From Luminiphilus syltensis NOR5-1B (GTDB lineage Bacteria; Pseudomonadota; Gammaproteobacteria; Pseudomonadales; Halieaceae), in NCBI RefSeq assembly GCF_000158175.1, contig NZ_DS999411.1, positions 1,850,929 through 1,914,928 on the forward strand: a stretch of 64,000 nt of DNA. The letters are read 5' to 3'. Shown here piece after piece: positions 39,329-44,725 of this stretch. Made by a program: the position numbers and the translations under genes. The notes below the pieces were generated by a model. It saw only the letters and a program-made list of their open reading frames with translations, searched no databases and had not been told where the DNA came from. The first letter of the stretch is position 1. The number at the start of each line of letters is the position of its first letter.

Positions 39329-40567
39329 ATGTCGAACAGCAAGCAAGCGATCAATCCGGAAAAGGGCTATGTAGCGCTACTGGGTTGGAGTCTCAACGCC
39401 GTCGAGGCTGCGGACACGTTTGATAGACGCTATGTTGTCGTCGCGCCCGAGTGGGCAGAAGACTACTGCAAGGAGCACGACATACCGTACGTGGCGTGGA
39501 ACTTTGAGCGACTCAACGACCGCTCCATGGAGATCGCCGAAACGCTTAAGGACATGGGAGTAGATGTCTCTATCCCGCTTTTCGAGGAGACCGTTGAGTG
39601 GGCCGGCGCCATTAACTCGGTGTTAATGGATAAGCCGCGGTTGTTTGGACAAGCTATGCTGCTGCGTGACAAGGCGTTGATGAAGCGTCGCGCTCAGCTT
39701 GGTGGCATTCGCGTCGGTATTTTTGAGGAAGCCCATGACCGCGATGACGTTATCCGCTTTTTAAAGCGGGTGAACCAGACCCTGCTCAAGCTGGAGGGTG
39801 ATCCCGATGATCCCATCCACCTGAAGGCCTTTGACAAGGCGGGATGCCTGGGCCACCGGGTGATTCGAACACCCGACGAAGTGGATACCATTCCAGATGA
39901 GGAATTTCCGGTGCTGATGGAGTCGCACCTCGATGGGTGGGAGTTTGCTGTCGAGGCCTGGATTCACAATGGCAAGATCGCGTTTCTCAATATCTCGGAG
40001 TACGTCACTCTCGGCTATTCGGTGTTCGTGCCTGCCACCCCCGATCTTGAAAAGTACCGTGAGCAGATTCGTGAACAGATCGAACTACTCATCAAGACCT
40101 TTGATATCGAATTTGGTTTTGTACACCCCGAGTACTTTGTGACCAGCGACGGCACCATGTACTTCGGTGAGGTGGCCTATCGCCCGCCCGGTTTCAAGGT
40201 GTTCGAATTGCTCGAGCGGTCCTATGGCTTCAATGCCTATCAGGGGCTGATCCTTGCCTTTGATCCCAAGACCACCGATGAGGAAATCAAGGCGTTCTTC
40301 CCGAAGGAGGTCGTCGATGCGAAAAACTACGCGGGTTGCTTTGGGGTTTATCCCCGCCGCCGCGTGGTCAGCCGGCTGGAGATTCCCACGGAAACCGAGG
40401 ATCATTCGTATTTCGAGTCACACGAATTGACCCCGCCCCTGGAGGAAACCGTGACCAAGCGAACCGCCTTTGGTACCCATTGGGGTCTGGTTTATTTCCA
40501 GGGTGATGATGCATACACCATGCGAGATCTCCTGAAGCAACAGGAAGAGTTGGACTTTTATGTGTAG
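39329..40567 (+). CDS. ATP-grasp domain carboxylate ligase of unknown substrate
   Basis: 412 residues from the ATG at 39329, which follows a GGAGG site at 7 nt spacing. The N-terminal preATP-grasp domain contains GYVALLGWSLNAVEAAD and DVSIPLFEETVEWAGAINS. The ATP-grasp core follows: ESHLDGWEFAVEAWIHNGKI and VHPEYFVTSDGTMYFGEVAYRPPG (acidic Mg-ligand strand FGEVAYRP). It is an ADP-forming ligase that would activate a carboxylate. It is 29 nt before the 678-residue Cys-His-Asn protein, on the same strand. I recognise no close characterised relative. Confidence 0.78.
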   Translation: MSNSKQAINPEKGYVALLGWSLNAVEAADTFDRRYVVVAPEWAEDYCKEHDIPYVAWNFERLNDRSMEIAETLKDMGVDVSIPLFEETVEWAGAINSVLMDKPRLFGQAMLLRDKALMKRRAQLGGIRVGIFEEAHDRDDVIRFLKRVNQTLLKLEGDPDDPIHLKAFDKAGCLGHRVIRTPDEVDTIPDEEFPVLMESHLDGWEFAVEAWIHNGKIAFLNISEYVTLGYSVFVPATPDLEKYREQIREQIELLIKTFDIEFGFVHPEYFVTSDGTMYFGEVAYRPPGFKVFELLERSYGFNAYQGLILAFDPKTTDEEIKAFFPKEVVDAKNYAGCFGVYPRRRVVSRLEIPTETEDHSYFESHELTPPLEETVTKRTAFGTHWGLVYFQGDDAYTMRDLLKQQEELDFYV

Positions 40568-40596
40568 CAGCATCTCTCTCACTGGACAGTCTTTCG

Positions 40597-42633
40597 GTGG
40601 GTCATGTGCCTGCCATGGTTGATCCAGTGTCAGATGAGCGGCTCAAACTGCGCTGTAAGCGGCTGGACGCGGCACTCGATGAGCTGACTCGCGCCAGTCG
40701 GGTTGCCCACCTCAGTAAAGTGCCCCGCGTGCTTGATGCAGCGCGGCAGGTGCTGGGCGAGCCGGGTGGCCCCCTGGCGTTGCGCCGGCGTATTGTGTCA
40801 CTCACTGAGGCGGGGATTTTCCGCGGTTCAGACTGGGATTACCCCGAAAATCTGGTGCCCACGCTCGCCCGGCAGGCGCTGACGAGCCGCGACCCTGCCA
40901 CTGTGGTGATAGAAGTCCTGAGTTTGCTCCGGCTGTTGTCGGTAGTTGAGGATGACTATCCAGGCGCGAATGTCGGGGTAGAGCAGTCACGGGAACATCT
41001 GGTTCGGGTGCTGGCGCTCAATCTCTCCATTCTCTACGGGATTCAGGGCGAGGCCGTGCGCGAACAGGGGGAGAAGTTGGCTGCGGTGAGTCGTGGATCG
41101 CTGCAATTTATTCTCGAACAGTTGGGCTTCGATCAGGTGGTTGATGCCTTGATTGCTGAGATCTGGCGAATTCTTGAGCAGCGCCCGATCCAGGTAGCAC
41201 CGGTGCGCGAAATGATTACGCAAATCGCGCGTTGTTTGCAGGATCCAGAGCAGGACCTCGGTGCCAGCGGTCGCGGTGCGGAGCGACTGGTCAGCAGCCT
41301 TTACGGACCCACCCGCGCATGCGGCGAAGACCCTGGACTTGCGACTTATGCCGAGCGACTGCGGGCAATGGATGCTGTGGGCCTTCAGGGTGAGGTCATG
41401 GGCTTGGCGCGTTCAATGCACGACACCGGCTTGGTTTCGCCGTATCACGCAGTGGCAATCAGCCACCTGCTTGAGAGCGATGACAGGGCGATACTGTTGC
41501 CCGACATACTGGGCTTATCGAGCACTGGGCGAGATTGCCTGTTGTGTTACCAGAGTCTCGTGCAGACCCTGATCAGGGAGGCAATTTATCCCGACACCTG
41601 CCAGTCGATTTATGGACTTGCGTTATTACTTGAGCGGGGGATCCTCTATCAGCCGCCGGTTGCCCCCGGGTTATGGCGGCAGTTGAAAGTACGGCTCGCG
41701 CCCCAGGCCAGGGAGCGACTGCGGCTCACCTTTGGCGAAGCGTTACCTCCGGAAACCCATTTGGTGGCGGGCGTGCTTTCGGTGCTGGGTCAGCCTTTGG
41801 GTATTGGTCAGGGCAATAACCCGACCTGCCAGTCTGCGCGTGCCCTGTCGATGTGGGCTTACAACGACCCGGATTATCTGCTCCAGATGGTAATTTGGGC
41901 GGCGCGCGACGATGAAATCGTCATGCATTTCGAGGGCGAGGGAATATCCTCACGGGGCGAGACCGAGCTGGTCCGACCCCTCCTGGGCTTTGATCTCGAT
42001 CCTGTATCGCTGGTGGTAGTGCCGCACCTCGACAGAATTTACAGTCAGATGATGGCCCGATGTGTCGGCCGCGCGGAAGATCCCCATTGTTGGGTTAATC
42101 CCGAGTTTCATGGGTGGTGGACCGGACGCGGCTTTCAGATCAACGTCGATGTCGCGACCGGGAAGTTGGCGAATCTCGAGGATTTTCTGCGGCATTTCTT
42201 TGCCAGTTATCACCCTTACTACAACGGTGTGCAGCCGCTGATCCATCCCCAGCCTGCAGGTATTGCAGTCACAGACAGTGCGGCTCGCTTTATCGGTTGG
42301 CACGCCATTACCATTCTCCGTGTGGCTCTCGACCAGCACGATGATATGCGGGTGTATTTTTATAACCCAAATAATGATGGTGGCCAGGACTGGGGCGATG
42401 GCACGGTGGTCAGCACCGGTGGCTGTGGCGAGCGCTATGGCGAGTCGTCACTGTCGTTCGCAGAATTCGCCTCGCGGCTGTATATCTTTCATTTTGACCC
42501 GCTCGAGCCGGGTGAGCCCGAAGCCGTGGATGGGCCGATGATTGACGATTGCGCCGCGCGAGTCAGGAGAACCTGGGCCGTGGATCGGTTACCCGCCCCA
42601 TTGAGCGAACCCTCGGAACGTTCGGTCGGCTGA
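40597..42633 (+). CDS. Large protein with a putative papain/calpain-like cysteine-peptidase domain
   Basis: 678 residues from the GTG at 40597 (ATG at 40615 is an alternative start). I recognise no named family. The first 400 residues are helical (ALNLSILYGIQGEAVREQGE; AISHLLESDDRAILLPDILGL). From residue 405 the pattern is Q405-G-N-N-P-T-C411-Q-S-A-R-A-L, then W-H569-A-I-T-I and Y-F-Y-N590-P. A Gln six residues before Cys, a later His, then Asn 21 after His is the papain/calpain arrangement. The role as peptidase or transpeptidase is inference. It is paired with the upstream ATP-grasp gene. Confidence 0.55.
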   Translation: MGHVPAMVDPVSDERLKLRCKRLDAALDELTRASRVAHLSKVPRVLDAARQVLGEPGGPLALRRRIVSLTEAGIFRGSDWDYPENLVPTLARQALTSRDPATVVIEVLSLLRLLSVVEDDYPGANVGVEQSREHLVRVLALNLSILYGIQGEAVREQGEKLAAVSRGSLQFILEQLGFDQVVDALIAEIWRILEQRPIQVAPVREMITQIARCLQDPEQDLGASGRGAERLVSSLYGPTRACGEDPGLATYAERLRAMDAVGLQGEVMGLARSMHDTGLVSPYHAVAISHLLESDDRAILLPDILGLSSTGRDCLLCYQSLVQTLIREAIYPDTCQSIYGLALLLERGILYQPPVAPGLWRQLKVRLAPQARERLRLTFGEALPPETHLVAGVLSVLGQPLGIGQGNNPTCQSARALSMWAYNDPDYLLQMVIWAARDDEIVMHFEGEGISSRGETELVRPLLGFDLDPVSLVVVPHLDRIYSQMMARCVGRAEDPHCWVNPEFHGWWTGRGFQINVDVATGKLANLEDFLRHFFASYHPYYNGVQPLIHPQPAGIAVTDSAARFIGWHAITILRVALDQHDDMRVYFYNPNNDGGQDWGDGTVVSTGGCGERYGESSLSFAEFASRLYIFHFDPLEPGEPEAVDGPMIDDCAARVRRTWAVDRLPAPLSEPSERSVG

Positions 42634-42881: not shown

Positions 42882-43075
42882 CACTGGGACCCGCTTGTTT
42901 GATTCGCTAGTGTAGCCGCCGTCCATCGCACCTGACTAAGTGGCCTATACGCACGAAAGATGCGGCGGACGATTGTTGCCATGTTGACTGCCTTGGGTAT
43001 TTGGTCTCAGTAGGGCGGGGTATCACGAATGTACGCGATCTACACAACGGTATTCACACTCTCAGGTGCTTGGAA

Positions 43076-43984
43076 ATGACTCTGCGCTGGCTTCTTAACG
43101 GGTGGCCTTTGTTCTGGCTTCTCAGTGTGCCGATTACAGCGGCGATGCTGCTGGAAATGCGGGCACTCGATATGGCGAATCCCGAAAGTGTCTCACACAT
43201 GATTCAGTTCTCGGTCCGCTTCGCCGTTCCCTTTATATTTATTGTGGTTGCCTCTACTGCATTGCCCGTGCTGTTTCCCTCGACTGCCAGTCGCTGGTGT
43301 TTGCGCAATCGGCGCTATATTGGGCTGATTTTCGCCGTCGCCATGGCGTGGCAGGGCGCTTTTATTTTTTGGGTGTCGACGACGCATGCGACCTATTACT
43401 ACAGTGACATTTACTTTTTGCGAGACGAGCTCGAGGGCAGTAGCGGCTATATTTTCCTCGTCGCCATGGTGCTGACGTCCTTCGATTTTGGCCGTCGACG
43501 TATCACCCCCAATCAATGGAAAGTGTTGCACCGTTCAGGGATCTACTTTCTGTGGGCCTATCCATTCAGTGTTTATTGGTGGAATCTGTACTATTACGGA
43601 AATCCCGTTACTCTCGATTACGTCTACTACGCCATGGGCTTTTTGGCGTTTCTTGCACGCATTGCCGCGTGGGGTAAAAAACGCCAGAGCGCCATCGCGC
43701 GTTCCGCGATGGCGAGGCCCGGATCCTTTTCCCGCGGCGGGGGTTTTGCATTGATTACGCTCGGTTTGATGGCATCGGTCACCGGGTCAGCATGGCGGGA
43801 GTCGGTAAGCCAATGGTTATTAAGCCCCGAGTGGTCGGCTAATTTGGAACTGTGGCTGCCCTATTGGCCTTTTGAGCCTTTCTTACCCTTGATCGCGATT
43901 GGTTTGGGCACCTGGTTATGGACGGGCTCACTTCGAGTTGTCGATATGCGGGTAAGCCAGAAGCTGGAGGCGGCCGCCTCCTGA
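43076..43984 (+). CDS. Ferric-reductase-like transmembrane-domain protein, no flavin domain
   Basis: 302 residues from the ATG at 43076. Six to eight hydrophobic segments are seen, with His in FWVSTTHATYYYSD and KVLHRSGIYFLWAYPFSVYWW. These fit the haem-bearing ferric-reductase/MsrQ-like membrane domain. No FAD/NAD domain follows, so it would need another protein as electron donor. No SoxY/MsrP partner is nearby. Substrate unknown. Confidence 0.55.
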   Translation: MTLRWLLNGWPLFWLLSVPITAAMLLEMRALDMANPESVSHMIQFSVRFAVPFIFIVVASTALPVLFPSTASRWCLRNRRYIGLIFAVAMAWQGAFIFWVSTTHATYYYSDIYFLRDELEGSSGYIFLVAMVLTSFDFGRRRITPNQWKVLHRSGIYFLWAYPFSVYWWNLYYYGNPVTLDYVYYAMGFLAFLARIAAWGKKRQSAIARSAMARPGSFSRGGGFALITLGLMASVTGSAWRESVSQWLLSPEWSANLELWLPYWPFEPFLPLIAIGLGTWLWTGSLRVVDMRVSQKLEAAAS

Positions 43985-44095: not shown

Positions 44096-44725
44096 GTGGA
44101 TCTCTTTGTAAAACCCTCTGATGGTTTTTCGGTTGAAGAGCTCATCCCTGACGATAAGTCGGATTTTGCGAGTTCAGCAAAACTATATCGGTCCGTATTC
44201 GATGATGAGCAGTGCAGGACGCTCTTTAATAATCTCGCGCACAGTATTGCCTGGGAGCAGCGCGAAATTACGCTATTTGGCAAACGGCATCTTCAGCCGC
44301 GTCTCATCGCCTGGTACGGAGACGGGGGAGCGTCCTACACTTACTCAGGTCTGAAACTAAGACCACGGCCGTGGGTAGTACCGTTGATGGAGATCAAGAC
44401 CGCGTGTGAAGCTGTCGCTGGCGCGCGGTTCAACGGCGTCCTGCTGAATCAGTATCGGGATGGCAATGATGCGATGGGGTGGCACAGCGATAACGAAACG
44501 GAACTCGGTACGAATCCAACGATAGCATCGGTGAGTTTCGGTGCATCCCGTCGTTTCGATCTACGTCACAAAAGGACAAAGGAAACCATCCGTTCCTGGC
44601 TGCCCAATGGGTCAATACTCGTAATGTCGGGCCAAACCCAGACCGACTGGGTGCACCAGGTGCCGCGGACCAAAAAGGTTGGGGATGCGCGGATCAATCT
44701 AACCTTCCGCTGGGTACATGCCTAA
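44096..44725 (+). CDS. AlkB-like Fe(II)/2-oxoglutarate dioxygenase
   Basis: 209 residues, GTG start at 44096. The fold and motifs match the AlkB/ABH2 group: HLQPRLIAWYGDGGASYTYSG, NQYRDGNDAMGWHSDNETELG (HxD iron ligands), ASVSFGASRRFDLRHK and WVHQVPRTKKVGDARINLTFR (second His and 2OG Arg). These repair alkylated bases by oxidative demethylation. It is a single gene. The start has no strong Shine-Dalgarno. Confidence 0.92.
   Translation: MDLFVKPSDGFSVEELIPDDKSDFASSAKLYRSVFDDEQCRTLFNNLAHSIAWEQREITLFGKRHLQPRLIAWYGDGGASYTYSGLKLRPRPWVVPLMEIKTACEAVAGARFNGVLLNQYRDGNDAMGWHSDNETELGTNPTIASVSFGASRRFDLRHKRTKETIRSWLPNGSILVMSGQTQTDWVHQVPRTKKVGDARINLTFRWVHA

Follow-up and report, generated by a model that had tools for sequence, protein, structure and literature searches.

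The window analyzed here is a stretch of 64,000 nucleotides of Luminiphilus syltensis NOR5-1B, located in a single-contig genome of 3.26 Mb, and it contains a pair of adjacent genes that, in the genomes we sampled, were found either together or not at all. The first gene (39329..40567, + strand) encodes a putative ATP-grasp ligase of 412 residues. The second gene (40597..42633, + strand) encodes a protein of 678 residues that belongs to no named family and carries a papain-like set of Gln, Cys, His and Asn residues; we refer to it as the Cys protein. The co-occurrence of the two genes is the strongest result of our analyses and supports a real functional pairing. The pairing in 29 out of 29 genomes points to a shared chemistry of the two genes. 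We give an even chance to the view that they form a two-enzyme module of amide chemistry, in which an ATP-grasp enzyme resembling L-amino acid ligases would make an amide that the papain-like enzyme would cleave or transfer. A prediction made earlier from the sequence of the window (the original prediction) had described a two-gene unit at these positions, with Q405, C411, H569 and N590 as the residues of interest in the second protein, and both the unit and the four residues were found as described.

The presence of the two genes was determined in three overlapping samples of genomes, applying limits of E 0.001 for the Cys gene in the samples of 97 and 398 genomes and of E 1e-30 in the other searches. 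Both genes were detected in the same 6 of 97, the same 11 of 398 and the same 25 of 194 genomes. In the union of the three samples, 29 genomes have both genes and no genome has just one of them. Co-occurrence, suggested as a family-wide check on the original prediction, was observed in these samples. The pair may also be present in unlinked form: the two genes are about 1 Mb apart in genome G604 and are located on different contigs in G622.

Among 103 loci containing the Cys gene or a piece of it, 92 have some ATP-grasp match, and 89 have one of at least 150 residues in the fetched stretch. The ATP-grasp gene is located upstream and in the same direction in 86 of these 89 loci; the two genes are separated by 3-306 bases in 84 of them (29 bases in the window, where both are on the same strand), and their frames overlap by 5 bases in the other two (L005 and L006). 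The exceptions are L007 and L100, where the genes are divergent, and L008, where the ATP-grasp gene is downstream; two further pairs outside the 103 loci (L141 and L142) are also divergent. Pairwise distances of the ATP-grasp protein correlate with those of the Cys protein (r 0.87 for 87 loci), a value that includes the kinship of the hosts.

The loci lacking an intact ATP-grasp gene beside the Cys gene provide a natural test of the pairing. At three loci, only scraps of it remain, present as decayed remnants just upstream of intact Cys genes (L033:682-872, L081:5825-5944 and L088:5805-5942). Eleven of the 103 loci have no ATP-grasp match. Seven of these (L004, L009-L012, L102 and L103) are extra Cys copies on short stretches, in genomes that also hold a paired copy; one of them, L012 in G079, is a remnant of less than 60 residues. 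For the other four (L060, L066, L075 and L079), 6 kb of upstream sequence was available and contained no ligase. We then analyzed the genomes of these four loci and of the three loci with scraps. All seven hold a full ATP-grasp gene elsewhere, whose product is 74-77% identical to that of the window, as compared to a second copy in one of seven control genomes that do have the neighbor (Fisher p 0.002). In a wider tally that includes G604 and G622, a second copy was present in 8 of 34 genomes with the neighbor versus 9 of 9 without it (Fisher p 4e-5), or in 8 of 29 versus 9 of 9 (Fisher p 1.5e-4) when five genomes (G058, G059, G062, G111 and G612) were excluded whose sole, neighboring copy is itself of the 75-79% type; a point against the functional reading of all these values is that the tests ignore kinship and that some genomes may be counted twice. 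Thus, in the cases examined, the neighboring ligase is missing only where another one remains, which argues against retention of the Cys gene in the absence of a ligase.

The copies located elsewhere form a distinct type of ligase. A tree was constructed of 57 of the 96 distinct ligases, comprising all 17 with less than 80.5% identity to that of the window and 40 of the 79 above this value. The two types part at a support of 97/93, and the seven copies found elsewhere all fall within one fully supported group of 14 members. Second-type ATP-grasp genes were also observed at L139:7781-9160 (G143) and L140:7744-9123 (G404), with no Cys gene in the fetched stretch; L140 stops at a contig end soon after the ATP-grasp gene, and elsewhere in each of the two genomes there is a Cys gene that is paired. 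Three genomes belonging to the same family (G079, G264 and G229) contain 3-5 full Cys paralogs and 2-3 ATP-grasp genes in varied arrangements (L104-L107, L112, L113 and L141-L144).

With regard to the first protein, its sequence gives a weak match to the Pfam family PF13535 (ATP-grasp_4; E 4.7e-5, 23.5 bits), which is under the Pfam cut-off of 27. This family was matched at E 0.01 or better by all 16 proteins scanned, i.e., that of the window and 15 relatives, with a best E of 5e-6. When a profile of these 16 proteins was searched against the PDB, L-amino acid ligases came first (4wd3, E 0.0024; 3vot, E 0.0033), followed by D-Ala-D-Ala ligases and N5-CAIR synthetase (E 0.3-0.4). L-amino acid (dipeptide) ligases of the BL00235 type are the nearest solved relatives by sequence, although only about 120 residues align, at E 0.002-0.003. 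In the ATP-grasp fold class, a pair of acidic residues binds the metal, and an Arg lies close to the end of the ATP site. The protein is highly conserved, with 198 invariant positions over 89 distinct rows and a lowest identity to the window protein of 74.5%. Invariant positions include E268, E281 and R285, i.e., an acidic pair and an Arg as in the fold class, and these residues correspond in the alignment to the H-x-E and E-x-x-x-R stretches found in L-amino acid ligases. Because of this alignment, and because L-amino acid ligases are its nearest relatives, the protein is probably a functional C-N ligase with amino acids as substrates.

The second protein consists of two parts. Residues 376-662 (41722..42582, + strand), delimited by conservation, by a model of their own and by a fold search, have a mean identity of 70% and not a single gap over 36 rows picked for diversity, as compared to a mean identity of 55% for residues 1-375 (40597..41721, + strand). 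To judge from the sequences, this pattern looks like that of a catalytic domain preceded by a partner domain under looser constraint. The four residues of the original prediction are all in the C-terminal domain, encoded on the + strand by the codons 41809..41811 (Q405), 41827..41829 (C411), 42301..42303 (H569) and 42364..42366 (N590). They are identical in all 105 distinct relatives whose alignment spans the four positions, so that C411 and H569, whose loss in homologs would have spoken against the prediction, are in fact invariant. They are also kept in all 36 rows of the diversity-picked alignment, down to 48% identity, and are intact in the Cys paralogs at 48-50% identity. As the family is tightly conserved overall, the invariance of the four residues is weaker evidence than it would be in a divergent family.

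Structure predictions are consistent with a papain-like fold. The AlphaFold2 model of the full-length protein has a predicted local distance difference test (pLDDT) score of 82.8 and a predicted template modeling (pTM) score of 0.74. The N-terminal part is near-exclusively helical in this model, the helices extending up to residue 398, and a separate domain follows. C411, the predicted nucleophile, is the first residue of a helix (411-423). A model of residues 376-662 alone (pLDDT 83.6, pTM 0.84) has the same arrangement, with C411 as the second residue of the helix. H569 lies within a strand (565-578), and N590 directly follows the next strand (584-589). Hence, both models present the Gln, the Cys at a helix start, and then the His in and the Asn after consecutive strands, which is the order of papain. 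A Foldseek search of the PDB with the domain model produced 283 matches, and 49 of the best 50 have titles of papain-fold proteins, a tally that relies on PDB titles and in which many rows are repeat chains of one protein. They include cathepsin B, calpain, IdeC, staphopain, dipeptidyl aminopeptidase and phytochelatin synthase; the sole other title is a viral envelope protein. In a library of viral structures, four of the five best matches of the domain model are named papain- or cathepsin-like, and the top one is named 'peptidoglycan binding-like'; two matches reach E 0.001 or better, one of which is named papain- or cathepsin-like. On the strength of these models, the Cys protein is best described as a predicted papain-like enzyme of no named family, and the papain/calpain-like array that had been proposed is supported by conservation, predicted topology and fold search.

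At the sequence level, the protein is isolated. In agreement with the earlier statement that it has no nameable family, no confident family was found for the window protein in Pfam, NCBIfam, PHROGs or PADLOC. Pfam was scanned with 36 full-length Cys proteins and with their 36 C-terminal domains. At limits up to E 10, neither the window protein nor its domain matched calpain Peptidase_C2 (PF00648), BtrH_N (PF14399), DUF3335 (PF11814), C39, CHAP or NlpC/P60, and none of these was among the families listed for the 36 members. Weak Pfam matches (ApbA_C, PriC, PqqD, DUF6244, DUF2891, DUF4274, UvrC_RNaseH, the C1 propeptide and a few more) and weak PDB sequence matches (WDHD1 and designed helical bundles) were rejected as chance, because each Pfam family was found in at most 5 of the 36 members and no match better than E 0.04 was obtained in the PDB sequence searches; the C1 propeptide, for example, was matched by 1 of 36 members at a chance level of E 0.21. 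A profile search with the C-terminal domain in 299 genomes gave no intermediate relatives, the E-value jumping from about 1e-151 to 0.37, and the sole match in between is the gene remnant in G079 (E 6.7e-16).

ATP-grasp enzymes make acyl phosphates and amides, and papain-fold enzymes form a thioester at their Cys and pass the acyl group to water or to another acceptor. In the amide-chemistry reading, the ATP-grasp protein would activate a carboxylate as an acyl phosphate and couple it with an amine, most probably that of an amino acid, as L-amino acid (dipeptide) ligases do. The Cys protein would then bind the ligase product, perhaps via its helical N-terminal part. C411 would attack the new or a neighboring amide, with H569 acting as the base, N590 orienting H569 and Q405 located in the oxyanion hole. 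Finally, the Cys protein would hydrolyze the amide or pass the acyl group to another acceptor, two outcomes that our analyses do not separate. We infer from the gene pairing that the Cys enzyme acts on the product of the ligase, and we likewise infer that both proteins are catalytically active, that they share a substrate and that the ligase product is cleaved or transferred. The module is probably cytoplasmic; no signal peptide was seen in the Cys protein on inspection by eye, no predictor having been run.

The original prediction regarded the system as undescribed. This stands for the family and for the pair, of which no description was found in the libraries scanned or, among the matches listed, in the titles and abstract openings of the open-licence literature. 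It does not stand for the chemistry, as both kinds proposed have precedents, cleavage in glutathionylspermidine synthetase/amidase (Gss) and transfer in BtrJ/BtrH, and RimK-type ATP-grasp proteins can also be paired with DUF3335 proteins. As these three systems show, partnerships of an ATP-grasp enzyme with a papain-like one are of a known kind. None of their Cys-enzyme families matches the window Cys protein by sequence. Gss is one fused protein, in which the amide made by an ATP-grasp synthetase is cleaved by a papain-like Cys amidase with a CHAP domain. BtrJ and BtrH work with an acyl carrier protein. The likeness of the window pair to Gss is the combination of a putative ATP-grasp enzyme with a predicted papain-like Cys enzyme; the differences are that the window pair consists of two genes, that its Cys domain is preceded by a long helical part and that no CHAP match was listed. 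Gss is counted among the CHAP proteins in a passage of one source (PMC10318531), and section 8 of the same source presents BtrH as a papain-like acyltransferase of butirosin synthesis. According to a passage in another source, BtrJ-like proteins are ATP-grasp enzymes (PMC4431377). Like the window pair, BtrJ/BtrH combine an ATP-grasp enzyme with a papain-like one, in their case an acyltransferase of the same pathway. There was no BtrH_N match in the Cys protein and no PF14399 or PF11814 match in the genome of the window. We fetched 12 DUF3335 loci and scanned one neighbor in five of them. The neighbor is a RimK-type ATP-grasp protein in three (L177, L179 and L181) and belongs to other families in L178 and L180. 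These RimK (RLAN)/DUF3335 peptidase_C39-like pairs thus also consist of an ATP-grasp gene adjoining a gene for a papain-like protein; they differ in that their ATP-grasp proteins are of PF14401/PF08443 and that the one DUF3335 protein scanned (L178) is a fusion with GNAT. A 'novel family of papain-like' proteins named 'New_papain' is mentioned for predicted peptide-synthesis gene clusters in an excerpt of a further source (PMC2922099), and its likeness to the Cys protein is one of description.

Several observations weigh against the amide-chemistry reading. The loop of Q405 (residues 404-409) has a pLDDT under 50 in the full-length model. For the best 50 of the 283 matches of the domain model, the best E-value is 1.8e-3, none being at or below 0.001, and the TM-scores do not exceed 0.37. 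The full-length model retrieves helical-repeat proteins first; among its 50 listed rows, 12 have titles of papain-fold proteins, and a calpain first appears at rank 5 with E 0.42. A profile alignment (hhalign) of the Cys family with one bacterial calpain (L168) was non-significant (E 0.54), although the Q-x5-C motif was aligned. Copy numbers are uneven, with five full Cys genes plus the remnant and two ATP-grasp genes in G079, four and two in G264, and one and two in G143. In addition, no third gene was found to be a conserved neighbor of the pair in different genera. The low TM-scores, the failure to reach E 0.001 in the PDB and the mostly non-papain matches listed for the full-length model would suit a Cys protein that is not of the papain fold and whose four residues are conserved for other reasons. 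We consider this very improbable in view of the papain order of the Cys at a helix start and the His in and Asn after consecutive strands, of the 49 papain-fold titles among the 50 listed domain matches, and of the names in the viral library. A Cys protein of papain fold might instead be a calpain-like protease that acts on proteins, with the ATP-grasp enzyme in a separate step, so that the two would share a pathway and not a bond. Calpain cores are among the best whole-domain fold matches (3bow, probability 0.85; 1mdw_B, 0.80), and the bacterial calpain L168 has the same Q-C spacing of 6 and also the H-A and N-P motifs, with C-H and H-N spacings of 182 and 18 versus 158 and 21 in the Cys protein. 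However, the Cys protein has no significant sequence match to PF00648 or to another peptidase catalytic family, and one would not expect a protease unlinked to the ligase to share its presence and absence in 29 out of 29 genomes, which makes this view improbable.

Two other explanations concern the product of the ligase. RimK adds amino acids to ribosomal protein S6, and the pair might similarly be a system of reversible protein tagging, in which a protein would be extended with amino acids by the ATP-grasp enzyme, and the Cys protein would take off this tag or trim the tagged protein. The very high conservation of the ATP-grasp protein, with its 198 invariant positions, would suit a macromolecular partner, the several Cys paralogs per ATP-grasp gene in G079 and G264 would suit one tag with several erasers, and the RimK-like proteins adjoining DUF3335 proteins provide a parallel. 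Nonetheless, the ATP-grasp protein gave no RimK match in Pfam or NCBIfam and its nearest relatives are ligases of free amino acids, so that we regard protein tagging as unlikely. Alternatively, the product might be a small solute or peptide needed in salt, which the Cys protein would recycle; N-acetylglutaminylglutamine amide is a salt-related solute in other bacteria. The scan of one genome per species confirmed at least 589 stretches as Cys-protein relatives, of which the best 80 were kept. These 80 loci are from Halomonadaceae, Marinobacter, Alcanivorax, Guyparkeria, Ectothiorhodospiraceae, Marinimicrobium, Saccharospirillum, Halieaceae and one Gammaproteobacteria metagenome-assembled genome, groups that are mostly halophilic or marine, as would suit a salt-related product. 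Against this view, both genes are absent from all 56 other sampled species of the host genus (completeness 54-100%), and no osmolyte gene was noticed as a conserved neighbor of the pair, although such genes were not specifically searched for; moreover, the 80 loci are the closest of at least 589, and the sample is therefore biased. This explanation is, in our opinion, improbable.

If the amide-chemistry reading is extended, the pair would represent an undescribed two-enzyme pathway with a patchy distribution in Gammaproteobacteria from mostly saline environments. A new subfamily of ATP-grasp enzymes would produce a metabolite or tag with an amide linkage, and a new family of papain fold, its helical part serving in recognition, would edit, transfer or recycle this product. 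This broader proposal is tentative, quite possible but somewhat short of probable. Both window proteins stay below the curated family cut-offs of Pfam and NCBIfam. The strict pairing offers a direct way into their function. Relatives of the Cys gene are present in genera that are easily grown, such as Halomonas and Marinobacter. If the proposal is true, a ligase with several Cys paralogs would allow a single activated building block to end up in several products or targets, a new amide product would add a pathway, and the Cys enzyme, if it is a transferase, could be a useful catalyst for peptide coupling.

With respect to gene context, the pair is also present in a Halieaceae bin (L013), the upstream stretch of which aligns with the acyl-CoA dehydrogenase gene of the window. 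Frequent neighbors of the pair, which we take to be TlyA-like, MscK-like, Mqo-like and acetolactate-synthase-like, are each confined to one group of genera; they were therefore attributed to synteny and rejected as members of a pathway. A lone Cys copy at L106:9035-12841 adjoins a gene for a GCS2-like carboxylate-amine ligase (a weak match, E 4.8e-5) and is also near genes for an AstE/AspA-like protein, which is below cut-off, and for a protein of metallo-beta-lactamase fold. L113 carries genes similar to those of this set, which is possibly another amide-making and amide-cutting one; being present in two genomes, too few for a functional clue, it was set aside. Relatives of the Cys protein had no match in the phage collection, and none was confirmed in viral contigs, where 72 pattern matches all proved unrelated. 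The plasmid search gave one record, a Halomonas plasmid of 1.83 Mb.

As for the gene starts in the window, the start codons of both genes are predicted ones. The ATP-grasp frame begins with an ATG that has a GGAGG just upstream, and the frame of the Cys gene begins with a GTG at 40597, which is uncertain, an ATG being present six codons further in. Just 3' of the pair, a frame of 327 codons (43001-43984, + strand) weakly resembles the MsrQ heme-binding subunit (E 3.3e-4, well below the cut-off), and it is followed by a gene (44096-44725, + strand) for a protein of the 2OG-Fe(II) oxygenase family (PF13532, E 9.2e-37).

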